Shown here: in pieces, positions 17,456 to 57,481 of the stretch
Layout: every line of letters begins with the position of its first letter
How positions within the stretch are numbered: the first letter of the stretch is position 1
Assembly (NCBI GenBank): GCA_017456145.1
Contig: JAFTJZ010000008.1
Coordinates: 1 to 57,481 of the forward strand
Direction: 5' to 3'
Origin: Clostridia bacterium
GTDB lineage: Bacteria > Bacillota > Clostridia > Oscillospirales > CAG-272
DNA length: 57,481 bases
The notes under the pieces: model-generated
The model's database searches: none
What the model saw: only the letters and a program-made list of their open reading frames with translations
Told to the model about the DNA's origin: nothing
Position numbers and translations under genes: made by a program

Positions 17456-17551
17456 GCATCGATCTTCCGCGCATAAAAAAGGGCACAGCTTGCCCCCTGA
17501 CGGCGGAAAACGGATGCACCTTTCATACCCAAAAATGTCCGAATGTATACG

Positions 17552-17672
17552 GATCACGGCAAGTATTCCGACTTTGGTGTGCGACAGCATACTCTTTACG
17601 GCAATGGCGGTTGCGTCGGATTTTCACCGAACTTCCCTCTCATCTCCCCGTGTGGCGGGGAGAACCGTGATC
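17552..17672 (-). ncRNA. Cobalamin riboswitch
   Basis: On the minus strand the RNA opens with GATCACGG, which pairs with CCGTGATC at the other end (17552-17559). Inside are AGGGAAGTTCGGTGAAAATC (17619-17638) and CAACCGCCATTGCCGTAA in the core, and the B12-box-like AAGTCGGAATACTTGCCG before the closing stem. These are the conserved blocks of the AdoCbl class. The promoter start point coincides with the closing stem. Downstream are one or two intrinsic terminators, then the small gene and the DUF4430-like lipoprotein, which are the likely controlled genes. Confidence 0.88.
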
Positions 17673-17678
17673 ATATGT

Positions 17679-17707
17679 ATTGTAACACATCACGAGATAA
17701 ATGTCAA
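17679..17707 (-). promoter_or_regulatory. Promoter of the riboswitch transcript
   Basis: On the minus strand TTGACA, 17-base spacer, TACAAT; the +1 falls at about 17672, the first base of the aptamer closing stem. Confidence 0.88.
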
Positions 17708-52480: not shown

Positions 52481-52533
52481 ATAGAATGATTTAGTAAGGT
52501 AAAGTGCGAGAGGCACGAAAGGATCATACATAT

Positions 52534-53304
52534 ATGAGAATTGTAGTAAAAATCGGCACGTCGACGCTGGCGCACGCGACGGGGCGGCTCAATATACGAC
52601 GCGTGGAGGAGCTTTGCTCGGTGCTCTCCGATCTGAAGAACGCGGGGCATGAGATCATCATGGTGTCCTCGGGCGCGATCGGCATGGGCGTAGGCAAGCT
52701 GTCACTTGCGGGCAGACCCGATGATATGCCGGGCAAGCAGGCGGCGGCTGCGGTCGGACAGTGCGAGCTGATGTACACTTACGACAAGCTGTTTTCCGCT
52801 TATAATCACACGGTGGCGCAGATTCTTCTGACGGGAGAAGACGTGCATCATGCCGAGCGGTGCGAGAATTTCCGAAACACCATGCAACGGCTGCTGGCAT
52901 GGCAGGTACTCCCCATCATCAACGAGAACGATACCATCTCCACGGAAGAAATTGCCGTGGGTGACAACGACACGTTGGGTGCGATTGTGGCAGTGCAGGT
53001 AAACGCCGATCTTTTGGTGCTGCTCTCGGACATTGACGGGTTGTACACCGCCGACCCGCACAAGGATGAACACGCGCGTCTGATTCCCCGCGTAGAGGCG
53101 CTGACCGACGAGATTCTCGCCCTGGCGGGAGACAAAGGTTCCTCGCTCGGTACGGGGGGCATGAAGACCAAGCTCCGCGCGGCACAGCTTTGCATGGAGG
53201 CGGGGGTCGATATGATCATCGCCAACGGCGAGCATCCCGCATTGCTCTACGAGATTGCCGAGGGCAAGAGCGTCGGGACGAGATTTGAGGGAAAGAGGAA
53301 GTAA
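52534..53304 (+). CDS. proB: Glutamate 5-kinase
   Basis: A 256-residue kinase phosphorylating glutamate for proline synthesis. RIVVKIGTSTLAHATG (2-17), MVSSGAIGMGVG, GKQAAAAVGQCELMYTYDKLF, LPIINENDTIS, GDNDTLGAIVAVQVNADLLVLLSDIDGLYTADP and GTGGMKTKLRAAQLC are the family blocks. It ends at EIAEGKSVGTRFEGKRK, without the C-terminal PUA domain found in the 367-residue E. coli form. AAAGGAT precedes ATG 52534; the frame extends to 52504 without a ribosome site. Proline operon genes follow. Confidence 0.96.
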   Translation: MRIVVKIGTSTLAHATGRLNIRRVEELCSVLSDLKNAGHEIIMVSSGAIGMGVGKLSLAGRPDDMPGKQAAAAVGQCELMYTYDKLFSAYNHTVAQILLTGEDVHHAERCENFRNTMQRLLAWQVLPIINENDTISTEEIAVGDNDTLGAIVAVQVNADLLVLLSDIDGLYTADPHKDEHARLIPRVEALTDEILALAGDKGSSLGTGGMKTKLRAAQLCMEAGVDMIIANGEHPALLYEIAEGKSVGTRFEGKRK

Positions 53305-53511
53305 TTGCAGCTTTGCCGCAAGCCCTACAAGGGGACTTATTGAAAAAAGGATTTTTAAGATTTCCCAAAGCTATAATCAAATGTGGTAAAATCGAGGCTC
53401 TGCAATACAGCAGCAGTAGCGTTAGGTACCGGTCAATTCCTTATCCAAGTTTTGTGAAAGGGGGAAGGGAAAACTTTTTTCAAAAAAGGTTTCTCTGACA
53501 AACAACAAACC
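53305..53511 (+). repeat. Degenerate R2 repeat between proB and proA
   Basis: Contains GGGGACTTATTGAAAAAAGG near the left and an R2-type hairpin GGGAAAACTTTTTT/AAAAAAGGTTTCTC (53463-53495) just before proA. No gene. The repeat ends 17 bases before the proA start. Confidence 0.65.
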
Positions 53512-54774
53512 ATGAAATCAACCATAGAAATTTTAACCGCCGCCAAGGCTGCGACCATGGGGCTTGGCGCGCTGACCACCGAGATCAAAAACGCGGCGCT
53601 GACTGCCATGGCGCGCGCGCTGATCGAGGCGCAGGACGAGATCCTCGCAGCCAACCAAAAAGACGTTGCGGCGGCGCGCGACAAGCTGTCCTCGGTCATG
53701 ATCGACCGTCTGACTCTGACCCCCGCCCGTATTGAAGGCATGGCGAAGGGCATTTTGGACGTTGTGGCGTTGCCGGATCCCGTAGGTGAGGTGCTTGCCA
53801 CGGTGGAGCGCCCCAACGGGCTGAAGATTGAAAAGCGTGCTGTTCCTGTCGGCGTGGTAGCTATTATATATGAGAGCCGCCCCAATGTGACCTCAGATGC
53901 GGCGGCATTGGCGCTCAAGAGCGGAAACGTATGCATATTGCGCGGCGGCAAGGAGGCGTTTTCTTCCTCTTATGCCATTGTGCAGGCGTTGCGCCGCGGA
54001 CTGTCCACGGTGGGACTGAACGAGGATCTGGTGCAGCTGGTGGAAGACACGACGCGAGCGAGTGCCAACGAGCTGATGACAGCGGTCGGATACGTGGATC
54101 TATTGATTCCGCGCGGCGGTGCGGGGCTGATCCGCGCTTGCGTTGAGAATGCGCGCGTTCCTGTGATCCAAACCGGAACGGGTATTTGCCACATCTACGT
54201 GGATGCAAGCGCAGATATTGGGGCAGCTTTGGACATATTGGAGAACGCCAAGTGCAGCCGTCCGTCGGTCTGCAACGCCTGCGAGGTTTGTCTGGTGCAT
54301 CGGGACATTGCAGCAAAGTTCCTCCCTTTGCTGGATGCACGGCTGCATGATATGCGGGCAGCGAACGGGAGTATACCCGTGCAATTTCGCTGCGACGAGC
54401 GGGCGTTGCCCCACATGGCGCATGGCGTCGCCGCGGGCGCAGATGATTTTGATACCGAATTTTTGGATTACCTTCTCGGCGTGAAGGTCGTGGATGGCGT
54501 TGAGGCAGCAGTGGCGCACATTGCCACACATTCGACCCACCACAGTGAGGCGATCCTGACACGTGACGATGCGTCAGCTGCCGCTTTTGTGTCGGCGGTG
54601 GACAGTGCGGCGGTCTACGTTAACGCCTCGACTCGCTTTACTGACGGCGGCGAGTTCGGCCTCGGCTGCGAGATGGGCATCTCTACCCAAAAGCTCCACG
54701 CACGCGGCCCGATGGGTCTGCGCGAGTTGACTACCTACAAGTACGTGATCACAGGCTGTGGGCAGGTTAGGTGA
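53512..54774 (+). CDS. proA: Gamma-glutamyl phosphate reductase
   Basis: A 420-residue NADPH-dependent enzyme reducing glutamyl phosphate to the semialdehyde. [59 protein letters not shown] and [12 protein letters not shown], with the catalytic Cys in the last (about 260), are diagnostic. [22 protein letters not shown] is near the C-terminus. No Shine-Dalgarno site lies before the ATG (CAAACAACAAACC). An R2 repeat ends close upstream and may have replaced it. Confidence 0.95.
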
Positions 54775-54780
54775 ATAGGA

Positions 54781-55118
54781 GGCGGGGAAGAACCTTTTGT
54801 GAACAAAAGGTTCTCCCCCGGACCCCCTTTCCAAAAAACTTTGGGAAAGGGATTGATATGATCGGAACAGCAGCGGCTGGTGGATAACGACAGCAACGTC
54901 CATTTGGGGCCCCCGCCTCAAATGATTGTGTGTGAGTAAGTGCTTGCATTGGACTGTCTTGTGGGGGAGGGGCCCCACATGGAAACTTGTTTTGCTTGGA
55001 CAGAACAGAACCGCGACAAATTTTATCCCAAAATATATTTTTATTAAAGTTTTTGAAGATTCCAAAGAAACTTTTTTCAAAAAGTTTCTTTGGCAGGGTA
55101 CGGGGCAGAGCCCCGAAA
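54781..55118. repeat. R2 hairpins and GGGGCCCC blocks between proA and proC
   Basis: GAACCTTTTGT-type hairpin (54784-54820) and tail GGACCCCCTTTCCAAAAAAC, then TTTGGGGCCCCCGCCTCAAA (54903), GTGGGGGAGGGGCCCCAC (54961), and the hairpin CCAAAGAAACTTTTT/AAAAAGTTTCTTTGG (55064-55095), ending in GGGGCAGAGCCCC. This fills the gap; no gene. Confidence 0.7.
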
Positions 55119-55145
55119 ACGAACGCCCTACAAGAAAGGAACACT

Positions 55146-55943
55146 ATGAAATACGGATTTATAGGCGGCGGCAACATGGGCGGTGCGATGGCGAAGGCGG
55201 CAATTGAGGTTGTCGGCGGGGCGAACGTACTGCTGTGTGACCGCGACGAGGCAACGACGGCGGCGCTGGCAGAGAAGATCGGCGCGACGCCCTCGACTTA
55301 CGAGCAGATTGCAGCAGAGAGCCGACTGATCTTTGTGGCGGTCAAGCCCAATTTGGTTGCCATGGTGCTGGAAAAACTGCGCCCCATGCTGCAAAGTCGA
55401 GCGAGCGAGGTCTGTGTGGTCAGCATTGCAGCGGGTGTGACCATCGCAACTATGGAGGGCGTTCTTGGCGGGGACATTCCGCTGATTCGCATGATGCAGA
55501 ACACGCCTGTTGCGGTTGGCGAGGGGATGATGGTTTATGCGCTTTCACCCGCGGCGCGCGCAAGTGACGCGGCAGCACTGGAGGCAGCCATGTCCCGTGC
55601 GGGCAAGATCCTGCCGCTGGAGGAAAAGCTGATCGATGCAGCGACGGCAGTCATGGGCTGCGGGCCTGCGTTTGCTTACTTATTTGCCGAGGCACTTGCC
55701 GACGGCGGTGTGGCTTGCGGATTGACGCGCGCACAGGCGCAGGTGTATGCGGCGCAGATGCTGCTTGGCGCGGCAAAAATGGTTTTGGAAACGGGCGAGA
55801 ACCCCGGTGCGCTCAAGGATGCCGTCTGTAGCCCGGGTGGCTCGACCATTCAGGGCGTCCGCGTGCTGGAGGAACAAGCCTTCCGCGGCGCGGTCATCGA
55901 CGCCGTCATCGCGGCGTATCAGAAAACGCAGGGGTTAGGGTAA
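55146..55943 (+). CDS. proC: Pyrroline-5-carboxylate reductase
   Basis: A 265-residue enzyme, last step of proline synthesis, reducing P5C with NAD(P)H. The Rossmann start KYGFIGGGNMGGAMAKA (2-18), FVAVKPNLVAMVLEKL, RMMQNTPVAVGEGMMVYAL, GCGPAFAYLFAEALADGGVACGLTRAQA and CSPGGSTIQGVRVLEE (substrate site) are the family blocks. AAGAAAGGAACACT precedes the ATG. It lies after proB and proA but about 370 bases of repeats separate it from proA. The longer frame from 54987 runs through the repeat and is rejected. Confidence 0.96.
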   Translation: MKYGFIGGGNMGGAMAKAAIEVVGGANVLLCDRDEATTAALAEKIGATPSTYEQIAAESRLIFVAVKPNLVAMVLEKLRPMLQSRASEVCVVSIAAGVTIATMEGVLGGDIPLIRMMQNTPVAVGEGMMVYALSPAARASDAAALEAAMSRAGKILPLEEKLIDAATAVMGCGPAFAYLFAEALADGGVACGLTRAQAQVYAAQMLLGAAKMVLETGENPGALKDAVCSPGGSTIQGVRVLEEQAFRGAVIDAVIAAYQKTQGLG

Positions 55944-56029: not shown

Positions 56030-56058
56030 TTGACAAAAGTCCTACGCTGTGATATAAT
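56030..56058 (+). promoter_or_regulatory. Promoter of the antisense RNA
   Basis: TTGACA, 17-base spacer, TATAAT; start near 56065. Confidence 0.85.
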
Positions 56059-56064
56059 ATACAT

Positions 56065-56157
56065 GAGAAAGGCTACCGGCAGACGGTTCGCCCTCAAAAC
56101 GTGTAATTCAAAAGAATTAACCGCTTAGTTTGGAGACGTGGGCGGTTAATTCTTTTT
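56065..56157 (+). ncRNA. Candidate type I antitoxin RNA
   Basis: A plus-strand RNA of about 93 bases from its own promoter to the hairpin AAAGAATTAACCGC/GCGGTTAATTCTTT and TTTTT. It overlaps the 3' end of the minus-strand toxin mRNA, including the stop codon, in antisense. Its start AAGGCTACC..CGGTTC..GCCCTC is also the start of the toxin mRNA's 5' part, so the locus has inverted symmetry. Confidence 0.65.
56111..56157. terminator. Shared bidirectional terminator
   Basis: A perfect 14-bp stem (56111-56124 with 56142-56155), loop 17 bases, T-runs on both sides. Lies at the convergence of the two transcripts. Confidence 0.85.
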
Positions 56158-56211
56158 GATTGCGACGATCAGCAACAGAACGATAATCAAAATTAAAGTT
56201 ATGTATTCCAT
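56146..56211 (-). CDS. Type I toxin candidate, 21-residue membrane peptide
   Basis: A minus-strand gene with GAAGGGGGC 8 bases before ATG 56211 and a TAA at 56146-56148 that lies in the terminator stem. The 21-residue peptide begins MEYIT, has about 13 hydrophobic residues (LILIIVLLLIVAI) and ends KKN. This is the form of holin-like type I toxins (TxpA, BsrG, Fst classes), which act on the membrane. The promoter is at 56305-56333, and an antisense RNA converges on it. The layout is like TxpA/RatA. The toxic activity is inferred. Confidence 0.68.
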   Translation of the reverse strand: MEYITLILIIVLLLIVAIKKN

Positions 56212-56376: not shown

Positions 56377-56395
56377 GAAAAATTTCAAAAAAGCC

Positions 56396-56424
56396 TTTAC
56401 AAACGCAAGAGAGCGTGGTATAAT
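56396..56424 (+). promoter_or_regulatory. Promoter of RNA unit 1
   Basis: TTTACA, 17-base spacer, TATAAT, then GAGGATGCCAAAC. Same hexamers and following GA(G/A)ATGCCAAAC-type sequence as the other two units. Confidence 0.85.
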
Positions 56425-56430
56425 GAGGAT

Positions 56431-56670
56431 GCCAAACTAACTTTATAAACGTGATGCTGTAGGTGTACTATCTTTATTTATAGGGATAGGTATGCTTTTT
56501 TGAGTATATTCTACATATTGATGGCGAAGAATTTGATAAAATGCAAATTCCACTCACGCTGTTGATATGTATAATGGATATTATCAAATTATACACCTAT
56601 TTCACGTGAAGTTAGTTTGGCGACTACTGGAGTTTGCGTTTTTGTGCACAGCTCCGGTTGTGCACTTTTT
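56431..56670 (+). ncRNA. Tandem structured RNA, unit 1
   Basis: From the expected start GCCAAACTAACTT (56431-56443), which pairs perfectly with AAGTTAGTTTGGC (56609-56621). Inside are pairs ACGTGA/TCACGT (56449/56602) and TAGGTGTA/TACACCTA (56460/56592), then TTTGATAA/TTATCAAA (56532/56581). After the closing stem come GGAGTTTGCG and the terminator GTGCACA/TGTGCAC with TTTTT (56644-56670). No coding sequence of any length is conserved in the core. Function unknown. Confidence 0.72.
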
Positions 56671-56676
56671 ATTTTC

Positions 56677-56783
56677 AAGGAGGTAATGAACATCCCCAAA
56701 AATTAAAACGCAGGTTCTGCATTGTTGTCACACAAACTCCGAGAGCCGCCAAACGAAAACGCCCGCCGAATATTCCGGCGGGC
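56677..56783 (+). repeat. Conserved spacer module after RNA unit 1
   Basis: AAGGAGGT (56677-56684), a six-residue frame ATG..TAA (56686-56706, MNIPKN), then CAAACTCC and CCGCCAAAC, which complement GGAGTTTG and GTTTGGC of the unit, and the hairpin GCCCGCCG/CGGCGGGC (56761-56783). Repeated with few changes after units 2 and 3 (57063, 57401). Confidence 0.75.
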
Positions 56784-56813
56784 ACCTTTCCTGGAAAATT
56801 TTCTAAAAAAGGG

Positions 56814-56842
56814 TTTACAAATGCGAAAATGTGTGGTATAAT
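56814..56842 (+). promoter_or_regulatory. Promoter of RNA unit 2
   Basis: TTTACA, 17-base spacer, TATAAT. Confidence 0.85.
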
Positions 56843-56848
56843 GAGGAT

Positions 56849-57056
56849 GCCAAACAAAAAACAAATATTCTTCATTAAGGGAAACTCTCTATTTTTACGG
56901 GGGTTTTGTACCCATTTGCAAACTAATCCTATGAATTTGGTAAAAGCGCAGATTCCGCGGGTTGGTTTGGAGAGTTATCCTATCAATTTGTTTTTTGTTT
57001 GGCGACAATTGGAGTCTGCGTTTTTCGGTGCGCTGGCTTCGGTTGGCGCACTTTTT
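56849..57056 (+). ncRNA. Tandem structured RNA, unit 2
   Basis: GCCAAACAAAAAACAAAT (56849-56866) pairs perfectly over 18 bases with the segment ending GTTTGGC at 56986-57003. AACTCTC/GAGAGTT (56883/56970) forms the next stem. The core is different from units 1 and 3 except for TTTGGTAAAA (56936) followed by GCAGATTCC. The terminator GTGCGC/GCGCAC plus TTTTT (57028-57056) has compensatory changes relative to unit 1. Confidence 0.72.
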
Positions 57057-57062
57057 ATTTTC

Positions 57063-57175
57063 AAGGAGGTAATGAACATCCCCAAAAATTAAAACGTAGG
57101 TTCCGCATTATTGTCACACAAACTCCGAGAGTCGCCAAACGAAAACGCCCGCCGAACATTTCGGCGGGCACCTTT
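57063..57175 (+). repeat. Conserved spacer module after RNA unit 2
   Basis: Same as after unit 1: AAGGAGGT, MNIPKN frame, CAAACTCC, GTCGCCAAAC, and a GCCCGCCG/CGGCGGGC hairpin whose loop differs (57147-57169). Confidence 0.75.
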
Positions 57176-57199
57176 CTTGGAAAATTTTCTAAAAAAGGG

Positions 57200-57228
57200 T
57201 TTACAAATGCGGAAATGTGTGATATAAT
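57200..57228 (+). promoter_or_regulatory. Promoter of RNA unit 3
   Basis: TTTACA, 17-base spacer, TATAAT. Confidence 0.85.
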
Positions 57229-57234
57229 GAGAAT

Positions 57235-57394
57235 GCCAAACAAAAACGAATAACATTGCTTTTAGCGTGTGTATTTTTATTTTTGATAAAAATGCAGATG
57301 CCGGCTTTTCATGCGCTTTGAGCGATGTTTAAGTTTTTGTTTGGCGACAATCGGCTCTGTGTTTTTTGTGCACAGCTCCGGTTGTGCACTTTTT
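57235..57394 (+). ncRNA. Tandem structured RNA, unit 3
   Basis: GCCAAACAAAAAC (57235-57247) pairs with GTTTTTGTTTGGC (57333-57345); after an internal loop AACATTGC pairs with GCGATGTT (57252/57322, one G-U). The core is short and contains TTTGATAAAA (57282) and GCAGATGCC. Terminator GTGCACA/TGTGCAC with TTTTT (57368-57394). The spacer module starts at 57401 and the window ends inside it, so the array continues. Confidence 0.7.
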
Positions 57395-57481
57395 ATTTTC
57401 AAGGAGGTAATGAACATCCCCAAAAATTAAAACGCAGGTTCCGCATTGTTGTCACACAAACTCCAAGAGTCGCCAAACGAA

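Follow-up and report, generated by a model that had tools for sequence, protein, structure and literature searches.

T-box leaders are long Firmicute RNAs that occur many times per genome and follow a terminator/antiterminator logic. The family described here differs from them in that the T-box matches of its genome lie elsewhere (the T-box model RF00230 gave nine matches, five over the cut-off and none at an element) and in that its genes, as far as Pfam shows, are not amino-acid genes. The ZTP, fluoride and yxjA purine riboswitches, transcriptional switches that work by displacing an internal strand, in the parts of the published accounts found likewise combine a 5′ leader, a pseudoknot or exchanged strand and a terminator platform (PMC10085676, PMC11077080, PMC9756952), and a strand-displacement riboswitch (PMC10085676) is the known analogue of how the present RNA would work. 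Unlike those riboswitches, our family has no Rfam aptamer match, no common gene pathway, a promoter at a fixed distance and a single frame that holds cores of differing size. Passages of Naville and Gautheret (2010; PMC2965389) describe attenuators at the ends of insertion sequences (IS) that stand before unrelated genes in bacilli and enterobacteria. The likeness is that similar attenuators precede unrelated genes; the difference is that the mobile attenuators, in those passages, are highly conserved and recently spread IS parts, whereas here structure is conserved across many families of the class.

The window, meaning the whole stretch of 57,481 nucleotides that was analysed, is contig C110 in full; it belongs to the draft genome (2.92 Mb, 117 contigs) of a Clostridia bacterium. 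Since it is a complete contig, the array that it carries could not be extended. The first-pass annotation had described three tandem units spaced 418 and 386 bases apart, each with a TTTACA-17-TATAAT promoter, a GCCAAAC...GTTTGGC closing stem, a terminator and a similar spacer, and all of these parts were found. The RNA starts (GCCAAAC) are at 56431, 56849 and 57235, the closing stem (P1) has 16, 18 and 13 consecutive pairs in units A, B and C, and the inter-unit spacers are identical at 104/110, 84/87 and 84/87 aligned bases. The paired sequence changes that had been noticed in stem and terminator are present as well, and the covariation of both across the family agrees with them. A core motif had also been given, TTTGRTAAAA-NN-GCARATnCC, which units B and C contain exactly; in unit A the gap between the two halves is one base shorter. 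The motif is complementary to 15 bases between stem and terminator (14 in unit C), which yields a pseudoknot between a core strand, S, and a later strand, S″.

All features that follow are on the plus strand except where stated. Unit A has its promoter at 56396–56424 (boxes at 56396 and 56419), with the spacing seen family-wide, and a leader RNA of the long class at 56431–56675, in which P1 pairs 56431–56446 with 56606–56621 and which scores 124 bits with our covariance model. S (AAAATGCAAATTCC, 56538–56551) lies in the core and forms the pseudoknot helix with the complementary S″ (GGAGTTTGCGTTTTT, 56629–56643). A candidate antiterminator strand (GCGACTACTGGA, 56620–56631) has support from the family, and its match to the unit's own terminator is poor by eye. 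The intrinsic terminator, hairpin (56644–56665) plus first T run, occupies 56644–56670. Behind every terminator of the array come AAGGAGGTA-ATG and an ORF of six codons; after unit A this Shine-Dalgarno (SD) sequence and ORF (MNIPKN, 56677–56706) are likely the remnant of a downstream gene. The spacer carries an inverted relic of the element's own 3′ module, here at 56733–56754 on the minus strand (GTTTGGCGGCTCTCGGAGTTTG), and a palindromic hairpin lies between units A and B at 56761–56783.

Unit B follows the same plan, with a TTTACA-17-TATAAT promoter at 56814–56842 (boxes at 56814 and 56837) and a long-class leader RNA at 56849–57061 (P1 56849–56866 with 56986–57003), whose 162 bits must be read knowing that the unit is itself among the 68 elements of the covariance model. 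Its S (AAAAGCGCAGATTCC, 56942–56956) and S″ (GGAGTCTGCGTTTTT, 57011–57025) contain a compensated pseudoknot pair, GCAGA/TCTGC, changed from A-U to G-C. The terminator is at 57028–57056 (hairpin 57028–57051), the SD and six-codon ORF at 57063–57092, the minus-strand relic at 57119–57140, where there is a weak antisense match to the model (57084–57345, E 0.013), and the palindromic hairpin of the B/C interval at 57147–57169. Unit C belongs to a short class, so that the array mixes both classes. It has a TTTACA-17-TATAAT promoter at 57200–57228 (boxes at 57200 and 57223) and a leader RNA at 57235–57399 (P1 57235–57247 with 57333–57345) that scores 82 bits and aligns with the short class. Its S strand (AAAAATGCAGATGCC, 57288–57302) also takes part in an 11-bp local hairpin with a core strand, S′, and its S″ (GGCTCTGTGTTTTT) is at 57353–57366. 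The terminator (57368–57394, hairpin 57368–57389), the SD and six-codon ORF (57401–57430) and, at the contig end, the minus-strand relic (57457–57478) complete the unit.

By eye, the six-codon ORF resembles the gene start after another element, L088, so the downstream gene of the array has probably decayed. We read the array as three duplicated leaders without their gene, whose cores come from three different branches of the family, and the three copies may now yield only short terminated RNAs. The inverted 3′ relic was considered as a working part of the element and rejected. Among 212 elements scanned it is present only after the window units and L004 (at 1600–1640, just downstream of the element), and we treat it as a remnant because all of these belong to one genome.

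Other features of the window were also recorded. On the minus strand, 56146–56211 encodes a hydrophobic peptide of 21 aa (MEYITLILIIVLLLIVAIKKN) with promoter-like sequence upstream by eye; a plus-strand promoter near 56031–56058 faces this ORF, and the two share an inverted repeat at 56105–56161. The locus resembles a type I (Fst/par-like) toxin-antitoxin system. Three plus-strand ORFs upstream of the array (52504–55943) are presumably proB, proA and proC of proline biosynthesis. A cobalamin riboswitch (17541–17683, minus strand, 55 bits), far from the array, is the sole Rfam match in the window at gathering thresholds.

The units are not a chance pattern, since the same element is found elsewhere in the genome and in many others. 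Further copies of the array in its own genome were found by blastn, and one own-genome copy used as query gave matches in 18 of 59 genomes, its own included. A pattern for the 3′ part gave at least 118 stretches in a collection of species genomes. Among the matches listed, 111 of 118 records bore the name Clostridia, Clostridiales, Oscillospiraceae or Ruminococcus in their title, and the remaining seven were Ruminococcaceae, Christensenella, Clostridiaceae, Bacillota (two) and, both lacking the MAG label, Pumilibacter intestinalis and Lachnospiraceae bacterium MD329. Ruminant gut samples are named in many of these listed titles. The resulting set of 118 elements contains window units A and B, three of 121 anchors having lain too near a contig end; another count used 133 of 135 elements.

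As the first-pass annotation had proposed, a covariance model was built, from 68 elements, and searched against other genomes, and covariation was found above that of shuffled alignments. The model matched 85 of 146 genomes of the same family (E 0.01) and 78 of 391 genomes of the class (E 1e-6), own genome included in both cases. A phylum-wide draw gave 1 match in 398, the own genome alone, with at least 14 genomes of the draw from the same order or class. The own genome has eight strong matches, two of them identical copies on contigs C66 and C99, and the highest number, 13, was observed in a relative, G159. These copy numbers are rough, as searches of many genomes score only some candidates and so hide copies, and the ten matches of the own genome in the family search include two weak antisense ones.

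We extracted 221 elements, at least four of which are counted twice via alternative starts (L044, L158, L218, L259). Most are 190–220 nt long, and a second group measures about 150–175 nt. In both length classes P1 and (A)AUA come first and one type of 3′ module comes last; beyond the helices, conservation is found mainly in the (A)AUA after P1 and in the S motif.

No element matched Rfam 15 in the window at gathering thresholds, nor did permissive scans of 3 and then 20 further loci (the latter taken from 40 short-class loci) place any family over its gathering score in an element. The sole family to exceed its score in the permissive scans was a flanking tRNA in L277, and the strongest sub-threshold match to overlap an element was STnc180, antisense, in L249, with 31 of the 50 bits needed. 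The view that no described family looks like this one agrees with the absence of Rfam matches in the elements scanned. No description was found in the open-licence part of the PMC literature that was searched, so an unnamed catalogue entry may exist. The large microbiome catalogue of structured RNAs by Fremin and Bhatt (2021; PMC8040213) could hold an unnoticed member; the passages found in its main text contain nothing like the family, and those found in PMC2965389 do not describe it. The family, apparently undescribed, is present in many copies in gut Clostridia, where it stands before genes that are unrelated to one another.

Three helices have support from covariation: the closing stem, the terminator and a previously unreported pseudoknot. 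In the long-class alignment (A1; 68 elements picked by hand from 124 non-redundant ones, window unit B among them), P1, pseudoknot and terminator together had 97.7% of cells paired and 180 double-change cells, where shuffled alignments gave 61.0; the paired signal was lost when the partners were slid. The short-class alignment (A2; 43 of 45 short rows, drawn from 38 of 40 fetched loci) gave 97.4% paired and 92 double-change cells against 20.8, including 8 double changes at one pair of the pseudoknot. The short-class P1 is diverse (GCGACAC/GTGTCGC, ACCACAC/GTGTGGT), and it was the covariance model, not pattern or blast, that brought in 38 of the 43 short elements. Where the pseudoknot is extended (YYCC with the GGAG side), pairing is less regular in this class, at 86.5%. 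A fixed 3′ pattern was used to find most long elements, which kept most of S″ from varying in the long set, and the model that found the short class was built mainly from these elements. On a tree made from the 5′ part, only 2 and 1 branches carried a change of both partners in the informative pseudoknot pairs.

S also has a local partner in the core, and the two pairings of S, local and with S″, are mutually exclusive. In the long class the local partner (GAAUUUG...CAAAUUC) is 92.4% paired. Differing loop lengths barred the use of alignment columns in A2, and the local S′:S hairpin was therefore counted sequence by sequence; 38 of 43 short rows had at least 7 pairs, and once the duplicate of L259 and L158, where another A run had been taken for S, were set aside, the count was 35 of 40. 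Estimated energies favour the pseudoknot over the local hairpin in one long element (−15.9 vs −4.9 kcal/mol) and in one short element (−11.9 vs −9.0 kcal/mol), and they are −12.2 kcal/mol for a candidate antiterminator vs −14.4 kcal/mol for the terminator. These are single examples, and the values allow either fold outcome.

The candidate antiterminator consists of the bases after P1, GCGACNAUCGGA (the strand is also given as GACNAUCGG), which can pair with the loop and 3′ arm of the terminator. In the long class 98.5% of its cells are paired, with 30 double changes at one strongly covarying pair (an earlier long-class pairing count used 110 of 118 elements); the short class gave 89.0% paired vs 87.4% in shuffles. 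A test stratified by P1 base, using 183 of the 221 elements, found 146 of 161 paired against a null mean of 129, a value reached in 0 of 5000 shuffles. One control failed: antiterminator base N1 also covaries with P1 base 194. On the tree from the 5′ part, N1 changes with P1 base 194 and with the terminator equally often, on six branches each; both associations stay significant in stratified shuffles, and 0 of 161 long elements are without both partners. Shared ancestry or a second partner may thus explain part of the signal. An antiterminator that pairs with the 3′ arm of a terminator, as this one would, is also at a kinetic disadvantage relative to one that takes the 5′ arm. We consider that the alignments make an antiterminator plausible rather than demonstrated for the long class, where its signal is partly confounded, and that the signal in the short class is weak.

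Across the family, the promoter keeps a fixed distance from the RNA, and a gene tends to start soon after it. In 141 of 219 elements the last base of the −10 box is at −6. An SD sequence and ORF within 60 nt of the T run follow 148 of 210 elements, as against 13.3% of 4200 random sites, with a median of 26 nt from T run to SD and start codon; 62 of the 210 lack such an SD and ORF within 60 nt, and for 22 of 221 no downstream ORF was found. Pfam and PADLOC were run on 144 of the 194 distinct downstream ORFs, chosen by length (50–700 aa, 173 ORFs) and list order. The ORFs are unrelated, with 68 Pfam families among the 144, the commonest being BspA-type LRR proteins (18); zinc ribbons (6), SHOCT (4) and an EcoRI-type methylase (1) are among the others. 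A loose lipobox rule fits 41 of the 194.

Two further readings were rejected. Among the 144 ORFs PADLOC found 21 families, each in one protein, and for that reason we see no general link to defence genes. Leader-peptide attenuation is not general either, since an SD-preceded ORF of at least 6 codons is present in just 33 of 221 elements. As a separate observation, three elements of one MAG, SIG706 (L140, L171 and L172), stand before similar SLOG/DprA-like genes, that of L140 being YAcAr. L140 and L172 have identical 3′ modules (58/58) and nearly identical downstream sequence (107/110), with weakly similar cores (z 7.2).

An SD sequence and gene start just 3′ of the terminator lead us to read the element as a 5′ leader that attenuates transcription, an orphan riboswitch-like class of Clostridia, and we put the probability of this reading at roughly 0.6. 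At the level of sequence, it draws on the family itself, the position of the promoter, the covariation of P1, terminator and pseudoknot, and the position before genes. The predicted RNA starts at the first base of P1, which would enclose a core containing the A-rich S strand (AAAAANGC...YYCC). S could pair locally in the core or, after P1 closure, with S″ (GGAG...GCGUUUUU), placed between P1 and the terminator, to give the pseudoknot, and this choice would decide whether the terminator 5′ of the ribosome-binding site forms. We infer the order of events to be synthesis of the P1 5′ strand, a core with S paired locally, closure of P1, invasion of S by S″, and then the terminator. With S″ held by S, the terminator would form and the gene would be off. 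With S kept in the core, the antiterminator strand, which overlaps S″, would be free to pair with the terminator loop and 3′ arm, giving read-through. The core would then be a putative sensor, in which a signal, by stabilising S in its local pairing, would free both S″ and the antiterminator strand. The direction of switching is part of what we infer, and the reverse logic is possible.

The first-pass annotation had also proposed a fixed frame with interchangeable cores, which gained support at the window array and at two further loci. Similarity was measured as a z of local scores, pairwise identity with cheap gaps having a shuffled baseline of 0.7–0.8. Pairs of window units gave z of about 8–20 for the promoter, 18–22 for the 3′ module and 57–81 for the spacer, and −0.7 to 0.6 for the cores with the S motif removed. 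The neighbours on G424:C59 share downstream sequence (108/110) and promoter (36/39) with unrelated cores (z −0.3), the 3′ module having diverged too (z 6.6). Two units on G159:C6, 1.4 kb apart, share promoter (34/35) and 3′ module (60/61) with a core z of 0.7; their downstream identity is weaker (86/110). In total, flanks are shared and cores unrelated in five pairs at three tandem loci of three genomes. In seven other pairs whose downstream sequences are alike, the cores are related as well (z 6.6 to 98), so that exchange is no general rule; a further pair, with unrelated downstream sequence, was left uncounted. The window cores have their relatives in other places: the unit B core is 85% identical over 143 nt to that of L195, from another genus, the best matches of the unit A core are L210 and L141 (78% over 117 nt), and those of the unit C core are short-class elements.

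Because tandem neighbours share flanks but not cores, the cores look exchanged, which we regard as partly shown by these comparisons. Drift would not easily leave flanks about 95% identical around unrelated cores, and the simplest reading would be recombination between members or replacement. Assembly error could also be the cause (the own draft has 7.5% contamination), and would then have to have recurred in three genomes. A tentative extension, to which we give well under even odds, is that the leaders make up a modular sensor system, in which an unchanging frame, made up of the promoter, the base of P1, the S/S″ latch and the terminator, receives swappable cores by recombination and so rewires duplicated genes, the cores being a library for different signals that control accessory surface or secreted proteins in gut Clostridia.

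The attenuator may instead have a core that senses a tRNA, another RNA or a protein, and not a small molecule. Long cores that fall into at least two length classes and can be exchanged at some loci seem more than a single small-molecule pocket needs, and the downstream genes have no common pathway. On the other side, no T-box or ribosomal-protein leader was matched in the window at the gathering threshold or, over threshold, in the permissive scans of 23 other loci, and we consider sensing of a macromolecule possible, though doubtful.

The units had been proposed at first pass to encode independent small RNAs, and this stands in so far as each has its own promoter and terminator and is structured. 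As a general account, however, trans-acting RNAs of ~160–245 nt, terminated, with cores that pair with targets and nearby genes that are incidental, appear improbable to us. The promoter-like sequence is found family-wide, the cores vary greatly, and no intact gene follows the window array, all of which would suit such RNAs. Yet the terminator typically lies just 5′ of the ribosome-binding site of a gene, at a distance far from random and usually with little room for another promoter; S″ adjoins the terminator, as it would in a cis switch; and family-wide, judged by position only, a gene follows.

Insertion-sequence ends left as attenuators before unrelated genes, as in the passages of PMC2965389, are a very improbable source of the family. 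The unrelated downstream genes and tandem copies would fit, as would the inverted 3′-module relics at two places of the genome and the one phage record (MT835503.1) that blastn with one long element recovered. Against this stand the conserved promoter, closed RNA domain, pseudoknot and terminator with paired changes over many families of the class, and no transposase among the 25 commonest of the 68 downstream Pfam families. Plasmids gave no match by blastn with one long element, and viral contigs none to the exact 3′ pattern, which would miss the variant in the phage record. That record (L288, 250–680) carries by eye a full long-class element with a diverged closing stem (GTCACACGAAC/GTTCGTGTGAC), and the gene downstream of it begins much like two others, the EcoRI-type methylase that follows the L156 element and the gene start after L162.

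A separate observation concerns L034, L046 and L174, where an insert with a common end sequence (TCTTGATGTCCCAT...) interrupts the loop of the terminator hairpin, each time at the same point. It looks as if it were terminator-targeting, and we take it to be probably a transposon; in L058 a different sequence is joined at that point. That the sequence works as DNA, a recombination or insertion site with incidental RNA structure, is equally hard to credit: the exchanged neighbour cores within a kept GCCAAAC/GTTTGGC frame in the window and the terminator-loop insert would suit it, but G-U pairs and a pseudoknot between non-adjacent strands are kept, the promoter puts the RNA start at the first base of the stem, and the terminators precede genes.

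Read as a transcription-attenuating 5′ leader, the element would be a control RNA that is common across a large group of Clostridia from gut and rumen. Its strong matches in the own genome are about as many as those to the T-box model there (eight and nine), with up to 13 in a relative, and many of the downstream genes have no known role. Should the cores prove to be exchangeable sensors, the family would supply natural examples of how an RNA switch is rewired, and every core would give testable access to a new signal.
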